From Methanolobus sp. WCC4 (GTDB lineage Archaea; Halobacteriota; Methanosarcinia; Methanosarcinales; Methanosarcinaceae), in contig NZ_CP150629.1 of NCBI RefSeq assembly GCF_038022665.1, forward strand, positions 62,001 through 126,000: a stretch of 64,000 nucleotides of DNA, read 5' to 3'. How positions within the stretch are numbered: position 1 is the stretch's first letter; the number at the start of each line of letters is the position of its first letter. A model generated the notes under the pieces. It saw nothing but the letters and a program-made list of their open reading frames with translations, was not told where the DNA came from and ran no database searches. The translations under genes were made by a program, and so were the position numbers. Shown here piece by piece: positions 2,877 through 8,860 of the stretch.

Positions 2877-3380
2877 TTAAGCAAATGGATGCTCTGCAGA
2901 GTCCTTCTTTGCAAGTGCATCATCTACGGTAGGAGTGCCTTCGATAGCACGCTTTATTGCAAGCTTTGTTGCTTCGTAGTTGAACTCATATACCTTTTCT
3001 TTGTCTGTTGCGTCCCATTCAATGAACACTGAAACAATGATGAGGAGATTTTCTGCTTCTTCTTTTGGAATGACGCCGTCAGCTACACTGTCCATTACAG
3101 CTTTTGCGATAGATGCCTGAGCAGGTCCGAACATCATGGCTGCCTGGGATACGTTCTTGATTGTTACCTTGTTCACAAGAAGTGTTGCAGGTTTTGGTGC
3201 AAGGTTTGGTTCAAGCACTGCAAGCAATGGTGAATGACCCTTTCTTGGTGATGCAAGTGAAGTCATGAATGCGGTCTCAACTGCACTTCCCTTTGTACCG
3301 ATTACAAGATCGATATGAGCAACTTCTGGTCCTTCTCCTACTAACGCTTCGCCAATCATACTTTGTGTTATTTTTGCCAT
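2877..3380 (-). CDS. fae: Formaldehyde-activating enzyme
   Basis: The 167-aa product matches Fae over its whole length, from MAKITQSMIGEALVGEG through the HIDLVIGTKGSAVETAF block that forms the tetrahydromethanopterin/formaldehyde site, including the conserved His (H22). Fae condenses formaldehyde with H4MPT to methylene-H4MPT in the cytoplasm, feeding the C1 pathway or detoxifying formaldehyde. A GTGGAG ribosome-binding site precedes the ATG. The gene is divergent from an HxlR-type regulator, with repeated TTGTAG half-sites between them, so formaldehyde-responsive control is likely (inference). Length is normal for the family. Confidence 0.95.
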   Translation of the reverse strand: MAKITQSMIGEALVGEGPEVAHIDLVIGTKGSAVETAFMTSLASPRKGHSPLLAVLEPNLAPKPATLLVNKVTIKNVSQAAMMFGPAQASIAKAVMDSVADGVIPKEEAENLLIIVSVFIEWDATDKEKVYEFNYEATKLAIKRAIEGTPTVDDALAKKDSAEHPFA

Positions 3381-3411
3381 ATTTATTTCTCCACTTGAAC
3401 TTTGTAGAAAT

Positions 3412-3488
3412 GCCCATGTTGAATATTCAAATTTAGATAATTTAAAACATCCTTATTTTTTGTAGTAAATTTTAAAGGCTTTCTACAA
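3412..3488. promoter_or_regulatory. TTGTAG half-sites between fae and the HxlR regulator
   Basis: TTGTAGAAA (3412-3420) recurs as its exact inverse TTTCTACAA (3480-3488), and a variant TTGTAGTAA lies between them (3460-3468). A second inverted repeat, ATTAC-CAAAA-GTAAT, lies near 3513-3527, close to a TTTAAATAC TATA box for the regulator. HxlR proteins bind such sites as dimers; assigning these sites to the neighbouring protein is inference. Confidence 0.45.
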
Positions 3489-3564
3489 TGCTACATTACA
3501 CTCCCTAATTACCAAAAGTAATTTAAATACTTAAGCTAACCAATTAGTAACCAGGTGAGATATC

Positions 3565-3942
3565 ATGGGTCAACTGAAACACAGCCCTATAGATAAAGCA
3601 ATCAAAATAATAAGCAAAAAATGGACTCTTAACATTATCAGGGATATGTTCTGTGGAAGCACACACTTCAATGAATTTTTAAAGAATAATCCAAAACTCA
3701 GCAGCAAGGTTCTATCAGGAAAATTGCGTCAAATGGAACAAGATGAACTGATAGAAAAAGTAATTGTTTCCAAGACACCTTTAACAATAGAATATCACCT
3801 AACAAGTAAAGGTAGAAATTTGAACAAACTGCTTTATGAAATTTCAGGATTTGCTTATAAAGAATGTGTTGATGAATCTACTCCTGAATGTACAGAACAT
3901 AGCTATGAGCTAACCAAAGAAATATTGGGTATAAAGGATTGA
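3565..3942 (+). CDS. HxlR-family transcriptional regulator
   Basis: The 125-aa protein carries a winged-helix HxlR domain. The N-terminal KHSPIDKAIKIISKKWTLNI matches the family's 'C-P-I..al..i.gKWt..Il' signature but lacks the usual cysteine at its start. The recognition region LSSKVLSGKLRQMEQDELIEK and the wing YHLTSKGRNL are present. The ATG is preceded by AGGTGAGAT. It is divergent from fae. HxlR itself activates the formaldehyde-fixing hxlAB operon in Bacillus, so a role as formaldehyde-responsive regulator of fae is attractive but not proven. Confidence 0.85.
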   Translation: MGQLKHSPIDKAIKIISKKWTLNIIRDMFCGSTHFNEFLKNNPKLSSKVLSGKLRQMEQDELIEKVIVSKTPLTIEYHLTSKGRNLNKLLYEISGFAYKECVDESTPECTEHSYELTKEILGIKD

Positions 3943-3948
3943 AATAGT

Positions 3949-5009
3949 TCAAGTCAACAACTTCAGCATCATCTTCTTCAGTTTCTCTTCTACTAAAGCA
4001 TCGAGTACATCGCTGCCAATATCAGAACCCACTCCCACATTCCTATCTTGGGACTTTACAGAAGAAGTTTCATGACTTACAACACCATTCGCTTTAAGCA
4101 CTGCATCGTCCACATCACGGCCTGAGAGGTGCACATAGACCGCAGGCATATCTGACCCTTGGACCCATCCGAAATAGGCGTTCATTTGGGCTTCTGTGAG
4201 GAAATTTGCCATATATGTAGCACGGCTATGACGGAAGAGATGAGGGTGGATTTTTTTATAATTCCTGCTCTTTTTGCGGTCCTTTTGAGCATCATCCTCA
4301 TTGCACCATATCTAAGCTGTCCTTTAGTCTTGCTGAGAGAATTAACCCATAGGGGTGATTCGGGGTCATCCTTCTGTGGATGTACTGCTACCCACGCTTT
4401 AAGGTAATGTACACTAAAAACCGCTCTGACCCTACGAGGACCTGTCTTACCATTGACACTAAGTGAAGCGCCGATTGCATCAAATACAAGATGCTTGATC
4501 TTCAAGTTCCCAATCTCACCTATGCGCGCACCGATGTCCCATAGTAGCGCAATGATAGCTCGGTCTCGCTCACACGTTGCCTTATTGATCATTTGAAGGA
4601 CTTCAGCTTCATCAAGTATATCCTCCGGCAGCTTGCTATTGGTCTTCTTGATAGTAGTCTTAATCCAATTTGTAAGGTCCGGCTGTTCCTCTTTATAGAA
4701 CCATTTATAGAATTTTTTGATGCTAACCTTGTAGTCATGCTTGTACCATTGACTTTTTCCAGATGACTCTAGGTCACAGATGTAATTGTGCAAATCATCT
4801 TTAGTGACACGATCAAAGTCAATCTCCATCTGTAAGGCGATGGTCTTCAAAGTTGACACATATTTCAGTATACGATGTTCACTAAGCCCTTCGACAACAC
4901 AGGACTCAACAAACTTCAAAATAAGCTCTTTATTGACATCTGAAATAGATGACTTCTTCAATGATTCAATACGGTCTGCAACACTTACCTTATATAGCCC
5001 ATTTACCAT
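3949..5009 (-). pseudogene. Tyrosine recombinase (integrase), frameshifted at an A7 run
   Basis: The main ORF (4182-5009, 275 aa) has a SAM-like N-terminal core-binding domain and the first half of the catalytic domain with the box-I arginine (GARIGEIGNL). It then leaves frame at seven A (plus strand T7 near 4251-4257). One extra base, or a -1 shift, joins it to the ORF ending at 3949. That restores HPHLFRHSRATYM (box-II His-x-x-Arg-His) and YFGWVQGSDMPAVYVHLS with the tyrosine nucleophile. All catalytic residues therefore survive, split between frames, with about 350 aa in total. The A|AAA|AAA run is in phase for a -1 slip. The gene begins 109 bp from tRNA-Thr, the likely attachment site. 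Confidence 0.8.
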
Positions 5010-5058
5010 TTACCTGTTAATCCCCTTAAATGGGCTTTCAACACCATTGATCAGGGGT

Positions 5059-5104
5059 TCCACATCCGCTATGTAAGGGAATGCTTCCCATAAATAGATG
5101 TGGA
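5059..5104. repeat. Nested inverted repeat in the integrase leader
   Basis: TCCACATC (5059-5066) pairs with GATGTGGA (5097-5104), and inside it GGGAATGCTTCCC (5077-5089) is a second short palindrome. It lies between the integrase start and tRNA-Thr. It could be a leader structure, an operator, or an arm-type recombinase site. Confidence 0.4.
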
Positions 5105-5117
5105 GCGCATTCATGGT

Positions 5118-5191
5118 ATCTCGGTGGCTCAGCCCGGCAGAGCGAGTGATTTGTAATCACTAGGTCGCGTGTTCAAATCACGCCCGGGGCT
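5118..5191 (+). tRNA. tRNA-Thr (anticodon UGU), acceptor stem partly degenerate
   Basis: The cloverleaf reads as D stem GCTC/GAGC, anticodon stem AGTGA/TCACT with loop TTTGTAA (anticodon TGT), a 5-nt variable loop, and T stem GCGTG/CACGC with loop TTCAAAT. The 3' acceptor strand is CCGGGGC with discriminator T and no encoded CCA. The 5' strand ATCTCGG gives one A-C mismatch at 1:72 and two G-U pairs, where GCCCCGG would be expected. That is consistent with damage or replacement of the 5' end, or with a tRNA fragment left by integration. It sits between an integrase and a portal remnant, so it is probably the attachment site. Confidence 0.75.
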
Positions 5192-6227
5192 CATGACTCT
5201 AATTTTTTAAAACTAATACTTACATACAGCTTACTTTTGACGATTCCAAACTGTTCACATAACCAGACGAGAACTTTTTCGTTATAGATGGTCTGGCCGT
5301 CCTCCACTGCCCTGTTGGTGACGGTCATCTGCAGGCCTTCATTGTTCAGACCTCAGGAGGTAGACGTATCGCCCTGGAAAATCAATGAAACACCAAAACG
5401 CGAGGAGATCCTCTCAGGCTGTCCTGGTTGTTAGTGGGTATCATCACAATACCCGGGGGCCTTCCTCTCTCGTAATATGATCTTGTTCTTTTCTCAAGGA
5501 AGTGGTACGCCATGAGGTCGTCCAGCATCTTTAGAGCAGGCGGGAATCCGTACAGGATTGAAGGATAGAACTTTGCAGAATACAGGACCTCATCTTTGAG
5601 GTAGTACTGCTTATTCTCATTCGATGTGGTTTCGTAGTATGCCTGCTGCAGTACTGCACCGCAATAGCATTTGTGCCCAGCTACTCCCTTTTTGACATCG
5701 CGATGAGTAGGACAAATCCAGACATTGCCGCCCATGCGGCCATCTTTCTTGACCATCTTTTTTATGTCACGTGGGTCAATTGAAAGGATTTCTTTGACAT
5801 CTTCCAGAGCGATCTCGCCGAATCTGTCATAGTCATATGCTTTGACGAGGAGCAGGTATCCATTGTCAGCAACGTTCAGGTTGAACTCGAAGTCTGAAAG
5901 AACTTCCTTGAGAGACTGGCCATTGTAATTGGCTTTTTTGATGAACCTGTCAAGCTTCTCAATCTCGGTATAATCAATTTCATCAGTAGAATCCTCGTCT
6001 GCATTGTCCCAGCGAAACCCATTGCGGAACATTTCCTGCTTGAGTTTGAGAACAGAATCAGAAAAAACAGACACCTCATTTTCGAGGTAATAAGCAAGAC
6101 CCAACGACGGAGCAATGTTACCGGCTGCATATGATTCATGATGTCCGATTCCGGGGCGTGTCGTCGAAACCCGCTTCATAAGATAATTGGCAATCTTCTT
6201 GTCGATATACTGCTGGACACGTGACAT
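5191..6227 (-). pseudogene. Broken virus portal protein gene
   Basis: The ORF 5382-6227 (281 aa) matches the N-terminal two thirds of a phage/provirus portal protein. It includes a small cysteine cluster (CPTHRDVKKGVAGHKCYCGA) and the segment KDEVLYSAKFYPSILYGFPP, then goes out of frame. Other frames down to 5191 continue portal-like sequence (FGVSLIFQGDTSTS, then GLNNEGLQMTVTNRAVED), so at least two frame changes or a small deletion have occurred. The last codon abuts the 3' end of tRNA-Thr, so the broken gene marks one end of the integrated remnant. No capsid or terminase gene remains nearby. Confidence 0.7.
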
Positions 6228-6277
6228 AAAATGAAAAGAAGCACTGCATTAGCTTAAAAAGTTATGAGAAATATAGG

Positions 6278-6934
6278 TTATTTTCTATATTTCAGCAAAA
6301 TCAATAAGCATAGAACAAGCATTATTGAAGTGAATCCGGAGATGCTGCGAGAAGATTTATTTTCAGCTTGTGTACTTTTGTTTTCAAGAGCATCTACAGA
6401 AGTTGGTGGAAATTCTTCTTCTAGTATTTCTTCTTCGTGTTCCCATACAAACACAACTGGCACCTCATTGACACCTTCTTTTTCACATTGTCTGCTGATA
6501 ACTTCATATATTTCGTTTACAACTGTATTGTTTACTTTTTCAGGTGTATTAGACTCCATCCCTACTTTCAGATAACCATCTATGTTGCTCCCAAAACTTA
6601 TAATAGGCCCACCATTGACCAAAAAATACTCCAAGATTTCTGAATTACTACGAGTGCACTTGACAAGCAGATCTGTCCATTCTCTTTTTTCCACTTCACT
6701 AGTAATTACTGGCATAGTCCCACGGGCGGCTATAAAATTAGCTTCATTTTCAGCTTTTTCAAACATTTCAGGGCCATAATCTGGTAATGTATAGCTTGTA
6801 TTCATATAGGATTCACCATCATCAATTTCATGAATGTCTGATTTATTGCTGTCCGCATTAGAAGAAATAGAAAGTGATAACAAAACAAGTATAATTACTG
6901 TTAATATTTTGTGTATTCTACTATTTTGATTCAT
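6278..6934 (-). CDS. Membrane-anchored pro-domain-like protein, paralogue of the adjacent protease pro-region
   Basis: The 218-aa product has an N-terminal signal sequence (residues about 10-28), an extracytoplasmic domain (about 40-165), a low-complexity linker and a C-terminal transmembrane helix (about 195-214) ending in KYRK. The extracytoplasmic domain aligns with the N-terminal 170 residues of the protease at 7128-8213. Shared blocks include PDYGP, PVITSEVEKREW against PALKEDKEKVEW, and VPVVFxxxxEEE. It has no catalytic domain. In secreted trypsin-like proteases the pro-region is usually a foldase and inhibitor, so a role as membrane-held chaperone or immunity-like inhibitor is plausible but unproven. 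Confidence 0.7.
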   Translation of the reverse strand: MNQNSRIHKILTVIILVLLSLSISSNADSNKSDIHEIDDGESYMNTSYTLPDYGPEMFEKAENEANFIAARGTMPVITSEVEKREWTDLLVKCTRSNSEILEYFLVNGGPIISFGSNIDGYLKVGMESNTPEKVNNTVVNEIYEVISRQCEKEGVNEVPVVFVWEHEEEILEEEFPPTSVDALENKSTQAENKSSRSISGFTSIMLVLCLLILLKYRK

Positions 6935-7019
6935 AATACTAAAATCCTTTTTTCCTAGGTCCTAATTATAAGTACTATACGATTTATTAAAATATTTTTA
7001 TTAGCCAAATAATAAAAAC

Positions 7020-7107
7020 CAAATAATTTATATTTAGATCCTAACCTATTTTAATAATTCTCAAAACAACATTTTTTAGGCTAAAATGTTTTTATAAATT
7101 ATTTGGC
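7020..7107. repeat. 14-bp perfect inverted repeat flanking 60 bp of AT-rich DNA
   Basis: CCAAATAATTTATA (7020-7033) recurs inverted as TATAAATTATTTGG (7094-7107). It lies between the protease stop and the pro-domain protein's start, both on the minus strand. A further GCCAAATAAT copy at 7005-7014 overlaps the downstream gene's promoter area. It may be a transcript-end hairpin or a pair of operator sites. Confidence 0.5.
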
Positions 7108-7127
7108 CAAACTAACTCACCCTGTGT

Positions 7128-8213
7128 TTAATCGAGAGGTTCCACACCCAAATCTAATTCTATTCCACTGACTGGTGAAAAAAGGGTTCTTGTAGCAGTT
7201 ACTGCCCTTGTAATTCCCGCAATTTTAACTGCTGATCCATATTCTGTATACATTGGAGCACCACTATCTCCAGCTGCTGCAACAAAATTTACAGAGAACT
7301 GGTCTTGAAGAATCCCAAAAGTTTGTGAGTTTTGGTTAACATATCGGTCAATGACAGTACCTGACAAAATGGTTGATGTTTTTCCTGACATTATAACGGT
7401 TTCACCCACGTATGCATCACGATGGCCTGCTACATCAAGAGGATTATTGTCATTCATGTAGTATACGTCATCGAGGACATTAGTTGCTTCTACCCAAGCA
7501 GCATCTGCAAATACACAATTATAGTAGTCCACGTCTCCTACTTTCCGTCCTCCTTGATAAATATCCGCGCCAAGACCGCCTCCTGCAACTGCAGCATGCG
7601 CAGACATAACAAATCCTTTTGTGCCACTGCTGTCTTCTGCAGCAAAACATAAAGTAGAGGATGCCAGTCCAGGAGTGTATATTTCTAAGCCACCAATCAG
7701 ATTTGACCAATAAGAGATACGAGATACTTCAATTTCTTCTTCACCGTACCTGAAAACCACTGGAACATCAGACAACTTCATTTTGGTTGCACTTTCTTCT
7801 ATGATGGCATGCATTTTTTCAATTGTAGCATCGTCAATATCACTTTTTTTCTTTTCATCCAAATCTACAAATAGATATCCTTCATAGTTAATTCCGAAAC
7901 CTGTAACAAGTCCTCTATCATCTTTCATGTAAGATAACAACTCATCTTCTGAGTTTTCAATACAAGTTTCTAGTGTGCCTAACCACTCGACTTTTTCTTT
8001 GTCTTCTTTAAGTGCAGGCACACTTCCATATGTTTCTACTATTCTAGAGTTATCTTCTAGGGCCTTGTATGTATTCGGTCCGTAGTCAGGAAAGTTATAG
8101 TTAACTTCAATCAATTCATCTTGAGTTGAATCTGTAGATTCAGCCCCCGCAAATCCCACTAGCATGATCGAGATAACAAGCATACTAAGGAATAGTTTAA
8201 GTGTTTCTTTCAT
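7128..8213 (-). CDS. Secreted trypsin-like serine protease with N-terminal pro-domain
   Basis: The 361-aa protein has a signal peptide (residues 1-24), a pro-region (about 30-170) and a chymotrypsin-fold domain (about 175-361). The triad is visible as His in GFVMSAHAAV, Asp in FADAAWV and Ser in AAAGDSGAPMY. The fold resembles the streptogrisin/alpha-lytic group, and the two-domain layout suggests maturation by self-cleavage outside the cell. A GGAGTGAAGT ribosome-binding site precedes the ATG. A stand-alone, membrane-anchored copy of the pro-region is encoded just downstream. It sits inside the decayed integrated region, so it may be cargo. The substrate is unknown. Confidence 0.85.
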   Translation of the reverse strand: MKETLKLFLSMLVISIMLVGFAGAESTDSTQDELIEVNYNFPDYGPNTYKALEDNSRIVETYGSVPALKEDKEKVEWLGTLETCIENSEDELLSYMKDDRGLVTGFGINYEGYLFVDLDEKKKSDIDDATIEKMHAIIEESATKMKLSDVPVVFRYGEEEIEVSRISYWSNLIGGLEIYTPGLASSTLCFAAEDSSGTKGFVMSAHAAVAGGGLGADIYQGGRKVGDVDYYNCVFADAAWVEATNVLDDVYYMNDNNPLDVAGHRDAYVGETVIMSGKTSTILSGTVIDRYVNQNSQTFGILQDQFSVNFVAAAGDSGAPMYTEYGSAVKIAGITRAVTATRTLFSPVSGIELDLGVEPLD

Positions 8214-8364
8214 TTACTTCACTCCTAATGCTAAAGTTAATTTGACTTTAACATCTGCTTGTTTATACCCATGCAAAAAGAGTTTTCAAAGTACTTATAC
8301 TTTGTGCACTTTTAAAAATAATATACCTAAATTATATAATAACTTTTAGAGCATGTGCAATAAT

Positions 8365-8628
8365 TTACTTATATATGTCCTTCCGACCCTTCAAACCCAA
8401 TATCTCCCTCAAATTTCCTCTCACAATTGAGGACACTGTGCGAAAATTACAGCCAGTCTCTATGCATATCCGAGGCATCGATATACCATTTGCAAACATG
8501 ACGAGGATGGTATGCTCACCCTCTGGAATGTCAACATCAATCTTCACGCGGACTTTCTTATCGTTTCCATACTTCCACGCACGTTTCCTGACAGTGGTGT
8601 TTTCTTCATGCTCGCCAGTTCTCCTCAC
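8365..8628 (-). CDS. Small HTH-like, virus-type protein
   Basis: The 87-aa basic protein has a helix-turn-helix-like segment, GISMPRICIETGCNFRTVSSIVRG, of the kind found in phage small terminase subunits or repressors. The in-frame start is a GTG at 8628. An ATG at 8609 overlaps the upstream stop (ATGA) behind a GAGGAG sequence but is in another frame, so the 5' end may be frameshifted. It belongs to the virus-like remnant set on the minus strand. Confidence 0.45.
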   Translation of the reverse strand: MRRTGEHEENTTVRKRAWKYGNDKKVRVKIDVDIPEGEHTILVMFANGISMPRICIETGCNFRTVSSIVRGNLREILGLKGRKDIYK

Positions 8629-8860
8629 CTAAAGGTGTCAATACTCCACATCGGTTGCAGTTGAATACATACATCAGGTGACCATTGCCGCATTTGGGAC
8701 ATATCCAGGGCAACGGCATTATTTTTGTCAGTTCTGCATCTTTTGGGACATCAAGCAGGTTTTGTTTTCCCTGGTGTCGAGCTCCGTGTTTGGCAAGATT
8801 TCACCTCGAGGGATTTGTCTTCAAGAGTAGAACAAACCGGCTGCCCCACAAAAGGTAGCC
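8606..8860 (-). pseudogene. Zinc-ribbon small protein remnant
   Basis: On the minus strand, ending at 8606, is a reading frame with a four-cysteine zinc ribbon (CPKCGNGHLMYVFNCNRCG) preceded by KHGARHQGKQNLLDVPKD. No in-frame start with a ribosome-binding site is seen. Upstream, a different frame (STLEDKSLEVK) appears to continue the protein, so a 1-nt shift is likely near 8797. It overlaps the following HTH-like ORF. Confidence 0.4.

Follow-up and report, generated by a model that had tools for sequence, protein, structure and literature searches.

The window analysed here is a stretch of 64,000 nucleotides from Methanolobus sp. WCC4 (NZ_CP150629.1, positions 62,001 to 126,000). On its reverse strand lie two neighbouring genes, the upstream of which encodes a secreted serine protease zymogen and the downstream a shorter protein that carries a second copy of the protease's pro-domain ahead of a predicted surface anchor. 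The features of the two genes, and of the viral remains around them, are collected in Table 1.

Table 1. Features of the protease/pro-domain cassette and its surroundings (positions in the window)
Feature	Position	Strand	Basis
Tyrosine integrase ORF	4182..5009	-	adjoins tRNA-Thr (5118-5192, +)
Truncated, frame-disrupted portal gene (ORF 5382-6227) with upstream bases	5243..6266	-	79% nucleotide identity to IMG/VR contig L245
Cargo segment between two virus-matching blocks	6267..8388	-	DNA comparison with viral contigs
Stand-alone pro-domain protein with predicted anchor (partner), 218 aa	6278..6934	-	ORF, BLASTP, HMM, AF2
PGF-CTERM-like C-terminal sorting signal of partner, ISGFTSIMLVLCLLILLKYRK	6281..6343	-	alignment of homologues
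Pro-domain of partner, aa 44-168	6431..6805	-	HMM match, predicted structure
AT-rich spacer with inverted repeats, protease to partner, 193 bp	6935..7127	-	
Secreted alpha-lytic-type serine protease zymogen, 361 aa	7128..8213	-	ORF, phmmer, alignment, AF2, Foldseek
Catalytic domain of protease	7131..7709	-	invariant columns, alignment of 30 homologues
Cis pro-domain and activation linker of protease	7710..8111	-	HMM match (aa 35-160), linker comparison, AF2 pLDDT about 79-97
Small viral HTH/zinc-ribbon genes, forming the second flank of the slot in related viruses	8389..8795	-	

The protease zymogen

The 361-residue protein is a divergent alpha-lytic-type (S1E) serine protease with an intact triad. 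It comprises a signal peptide (approximately residues 1-24), a pro-domain (approximately residues 35-168) and a catalytic domain (residues 169-361), and its relationship to alpha-lytic protease can be seen both in sequence (phmmer, E=1.7e-6) and in its AlphaFold model (pLDDT 84), which superposes on alpha-lytic protease across 181 residues (VIA Z about 21, rmsd 1.9-2.0) and matches 1gba in Foldseek with E=5e-14 and a TM of 0.82. The triad residues H206, D237 and S317 (codons at 7596-7598, 7503-7505 and 7263-7265) are invariant across the 30 aligned homologues, and the GDSG motif is also present. Immediately before the mature N-terminus the cis pro-domain ends in an activation linker with the motif SR[I/T/S]S-x-W, which mostly reads SR[TS]S-x-W among the cis copies.

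With alpha-lytic protease and the streptogrisins (MEROPS S1E) the protein shares its catalytic fold, its triad, an N-terminal pro-domain ending before the mature N-terminus and its nature as a secreted zymogen. It differs from them in that its pro-domain is a single lobe of about 125 residues which found no Pfam match up to an E of 0.1 (PF02983 being the family sought) and matches the solved alpha-lytic pro-regions 3pro/4pro only weakly, at a Z of about 4.5 tied with unrelated folds, and in that a second gene repeats this pro-domain with an anchor. Residues 76-361 of the model also align with plant NARROW LEAF 1 (Z 21.9, 264 residues, rmsd 4.0), an alignment which spans part of the pro-domain and all of the catalytic domain.

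The partner and its predicted anchor

An earlier note on this DNA had proposed that the 218-residue protein repeats the pro-region of the adjacent protease and lacks its catalytic domain, and both points hold. BLASTP confines the similarity of the two proteins to signal peptide and pro-region, where 43 of 169 residues are identical (25%, E=2e-22), and the chymotrypsin-fold catalytic domain with its triad is present in the longer protein alone, so that the shorter one is, by homology, of the kind expected for a propeptide-like inhibitor. Its domain is predicted by AF2 to run beta-alpha-beta-beta-alpha-beta, the same order of elements as in the cis pro-domain, with a core pLDDT over 95. A fold search of the stand-alone domain against the PDB and viral models gave no clear relative, a profile search of the PDB with the partner alignment gave no match, and Pfam, NCBIfam, PHROGs and PADLOC offered nothing useful for naming either protein. 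An alpha-lytic protease prodomain-like protein from Desulfovibrio piger (PDB 4hlb) resembles the partner in being a separate protein of this type, and its structure has been solved, but the structural match to it is weak (Z 4.8, 77 residues).

The same note took the protein to end in a membrane helix. The hydrophobic C-terminal segment is real, but its surroundings have the layout of a PGF-CTERM-like sorting signal rather than that of a plain helix: an SGF motif (PGF in most homologues) is followed by the hydrophobic segment and a basic end, and the G and F of the motif are nearly invariant among 34 homologues. Of the 59 copies adjacent to a protease, 40 carry PGF and another 10 a variant of it. 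A signal peptide, a PGF-like motif, a hydrophobic stretch and a basic end are all features of PGF-CTERM surface proteins processed by archaeosortase A, an enzyme that is encoded in the window's own genome (TIGR04125, E=6.9e-79). The window copy departs from these proteins in its SGF and in having no domain match to the NCBIfam PGF-CTERM model, which leaves its processing uncertain. A title cited in PMC8875312 reports that permuting this motif blocks processing in Haloferax, and the helix of the window copy may therefore simply stay in the membrane. Judged by its layout, the C-terminal helix is a putative archaeosortase sorting signal of the PGF-CTERM-like type, through which the partner would be anchored and might be processed. 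Partners lack the SR[TS]S cleavage linker of the cis copies, and in some of them only about 10 residues separate the last strand of the domain from the anchor.

As regards the spacer between the genes, its first part, next to the stop codon of the protease, has a more stable predicted fold than mononucleotide shuffles of it (mean z -2.1 over 37 spacers, the window's and 36 homologous ones) and a T-run is frequent there, which together hint at a partial terminator. TATA-like boxes before the partner are no commoner than in shuffled sequences (26 observed, 26.2 expected).

Distribution and pairing across the Methanosarcinaceae

Of 112 Methanosarcinaceae genomes, 70 have relatives of the pro-domain and 36 have the catalytic domain; Methanolobus, Methanococcoides, Methanohalophilus and Methanosarcina are among the genera represented. 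Pro-domain proteins are also found in 35 genomes in which the catalytic-domain search returned no protease relative, at least 12 of these genomes consisting of one or two contigs. We compared about 140 loci, classing their ORFs by profiles of the two domains. The first loci were chosen by pro-domain similarity and contained 62 single-domain, 68 tandem-domain, 35 pro-plus-protease and 4 protease-only ORFs, the last being mostly fragments of interrupted genes; a second set was added through the catalytic-domain search. Over the whole locus set, 53 family proteases cover at least 150 model positions, and 46 of these are directly followed, on the same strand and after a gap of 35-700 bp, by a pro-domain-only gene. 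Since the catalytic-domain search supplied the second set, this count does not rest on pro-domain selection alone. The two-gene system suspected from this one locus is thus a recurrent arrangement in the family; the opposite pattern, in which short homologues would be found only far from proteases, was not seen, and many orphan copies exist as well. The pairing and the E value of the alignment rule out chance similarity between the two proteins. That a two-gene cassette of protease and anchored pro-domain is conserved across several genera and protease subfamilies is strongly supported.

Seven proteases depart from this arrangement. Three are solitary Methanosarcina-type enzymes (L047, L182 and L183), one runs off its contig (L192), one is a second protease that follows the partner genes (L196), and two belong to the split loci of a single genome, G059, in which a protease without a cis pro-domain is directly preceded by an anchored pro-domain gene (L186, 5602-7339; L187, 4175-6500). 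In L187 the protease is complete, its own signal peptide leading into the mature start and its triad being present; in L186 the signal peptide is frame-shifted. Intact partnered proteases, that of the window included, retain their cis pro-domain. Outside the family a partner was detectable for only 3 of 14 proteases, and these partners lack an anchor. Relatives from beyond the Methanosarcinaceae were covered as a sample.

The loci contain several further arrangements. Pro-domains are fused to HEAT repeats (L036, L065, L109, L125 and L042) or to a cohesin domain (L004) ahead of a PGF-CTERM-like tail, and in L125 and L042 the HEAT-fused protein lies directly downstream of a protease. A membrane-anchored HTH regulator beside a 140-residue secreted protein recurs next to cassettes in several genomes (L078:8468-9642, L107, L117, L130, L131 and L083).

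Age and co-divergence of the two copies

When 263 pro-domains were placed in a tree and each was compared with its nearest neighbour from a different locus, 55 of 59 cis copies were found next to another cis copy and nearly all stand-alone copies next to another stand-alone copy. The stand-alone copies form separate lineages of long standing, and a recent local duplication of the pro-region is ruled out, as they group together and not with the neighbour's cis copy. Across 39 cassettes the distances of protease and partner domain correlate with r=0.79, a value which re-pairing of partners within the same genome (r 0.48+/-0.09) reached in none of 1000 trials, although genes that are linked will co-diverge whether or not their products touch. 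Comparison of the window with M. psychrotolerans gives a dN/dS of 0.26 for the protease and of 0.12 for the partner domain, so the latter is under strong purifying selection.

The viral setting

The portal gene directly downstream of the partner is that of an HVTV/HCTV-like tailed archaeal virus and has relatives in seven IMG/VR contigs. DNA comparison places the cassette exactly between the portal block and the HTH/zinc-ribbon block (Table 1), both of which match these contigs, and the mobile region suspected from the sequence is accordingly a degraded tailed provirus with the cassette between two of its pieces. In four related contigs (L246-L248 and L251) the two flanks adjoin and the slot is empty. 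In L245 it holds (3573-7411) an 874-residue helicase-like protein, matching the PADLOC candidate defence family PDC-S28 with E=3e-121, and a 267-residue protein, and in L249/L250 a 962-residue beta-helix surface protein (L249:4747-7635). The slot beside the portal gene is thus variable in its cargo, and in the decayed tailed provirus of the window it is filled by the cassette. The same junction of cassette and portal gene occurs in M. psychrotolerans, flanked by transposases, so that two Methanolobus genomes carry the pair as present or former viral cargo. The other cassette-bearing genomes contained no relative of the window portal gene, the scanned viral contigs no relatives of protease or partner and no cassette, and the window no duplicate of the tRNA-Thr end. 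Genes for an HxlR regulator (83% identical) and Fae lie near cassettes both here (2877-3942) and in L066 (10399-11426); those of the window sit beyond the integrase and tRNA-Thr.

Discussion

We have described a conserved pair of genes in which a secreted protease is followed by a second copy of its pro-domain with a predicted anchor. The reading we favour, and to which we give an even chance, is that the partner is an inhibitor, serving as self-protection where it accompanies the protease and as orphan immunity elsewhere. The upstream gene would then supply an alpha-lytic-type protease that relies on its own cis pro-domain for folding and is set free after self-cleavage at the SR[TS]S-x-W linker. 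From the downstream gene would come one or two further pro-domain copies that have neither the cleavage site nor a catalytic domain; a signal peptide would export them and the PGF-CTERM-type anchor would keep them on the cell surface. There the anchored pro-domain would bind mature protease near the producer and keep it inactive, so sparing the producer's S-layer and membrane proteins, and orphan copies would protect protease-free species against their neighbours' enzymes.

Several observations favour inhibition. Intact proteases with a partner still have their pro-domain in cis and so do not depend on the partner alone for folding, and the absence of the cleavage linker from partners points the same way. 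The 35 protease-free genomes with pro-domain proteins are also more easily understood if the protein is an inhibitor, as a foldase with no client would be idle and an inhibitor directed at neighbours would not. In its gene layout the system resembles toxin and immunity pairs, with a pro-domain gene directly beside the protease and orphans in genomes that have none, and the same slot of a related virus carries a candidate defence protein. The archaeal subtilase pernisine is inhibited tightly and selectively by its cognate propeptide (PMC10580911), and as with pernisine and the propeptide-like inhibitors, a pro-domain is here expected to act as a separate chain on its cognate protease. The present case differs from these in its protease family and in having a dedicated, surface-anchored gene beside the protease, often with tandem domains. 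In haloarchaea the pro-part of halocin C8, HalI, serves as the producer's immunity protein. Our proposal likewise makes an archaeal pro-part the producer's immunity, although halocin C8 is a peptide made from one precursor gene and the system described here consists of a protease and two genes.

Other observations count against inhibition. The alpha-lytic pro-region has a substrate-like C-terminal tail, and where only some 10 residues separate domain and anchor such a tail may not reach the active site. The HEAT- and cohesin-fused orphan copies may mean a more general binding role, and the three solitary Methanosarcina-type proteases, like most of those outside the family, have no partner. In addition, the split loci of G059 suggest that the anchored form has foldase activity there.

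This last arrangement brings us to the alternative that the partner is a tethered foldase, a steric chaperone acting in trans to fold the protease at the membrane as Lif does for lipases. We regard this as a minority possibility for the family as a whole. The partner is predicted to be anchored and is encoded beside its client, alpha-lytic pro-regions and Lif have been grouped together as steric chaperones (PMC3352829), and in G059 the anchored pro-domain accompanies proteases with no pro-domain in cis, that of L187 being otherwise complete. The anchored form may thus fold its client in at least the G059 lineage, whose split loci are a natural trans-foldase candidate and resemble the arrangement of Lif/LipH, a membrane-tethered steric chaperone encoded next to its secreted client. 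The anchor of Lif/LipH is N-terminal, whereas here it is C-terminal and the client usually retains its own pro-domain, and we know of no sequence relation between the two. Only the G059 proteases lack a cis pro-domain, however, and a folding role also sits poorly with the protease-free genomes and with the related proteases outside the family that mostly manage without a partner. From the gene arrangements, inhibition for self-protection appears to fit most cassettes better than folding, and a tethered trans-foldase would fit that of G059.

It is unlikely, in our view, that the anchored pro-domain instead holds mature protease on the producer's surface, active or latent, with no protective purpose. 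An unanchored secreted protease beside an anchored cognate pro-domain would suit such display, as would the surface proteins that join pro-domains to cohesin or HEAT modules, but the orphan copies would be left unexplained and pro-domains of the alpha-lytic type normally cover the active site. We think it very improbable that the stand-alone copies are general extracellular modules functionally unlinked to their neighbours, their adjacency being left over from an old duplication. Such a protease is missing from about half of the genomes that have the pro-domain, and the domain is found fused to unrelated modules, but the pairing spans several genera and subfamilies, the pairs co-diverge within genomes, and purifying selection is strong.

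Returning to inhibition as the favoured role, it is tempting, if distinctly more speculative, to go further and see in the cassette a partly virus-borne protease and immunity system. The protease would be the weapon and a surface-anchored second copy of its own pro-domain the immunity protein; tailed viruses of Methanolobus would load the pair into a portal-side slot open to defence genes as well, and orphan copies would be kept by non-producers as protection from their neighbours.

How archaea compete, and how they survive the enzymes they themselves secrete, is poorly understood. The cassette offers a common and testable pairing of protease and putative anchored antagonist in well-studied methanogens, and its natural variants (single, tandem, orphan and split) allow the part that a pro-domain plays in folding to be told apart from its part in inhibition. 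Its place in a viral cargo slot points to conflict between strains.
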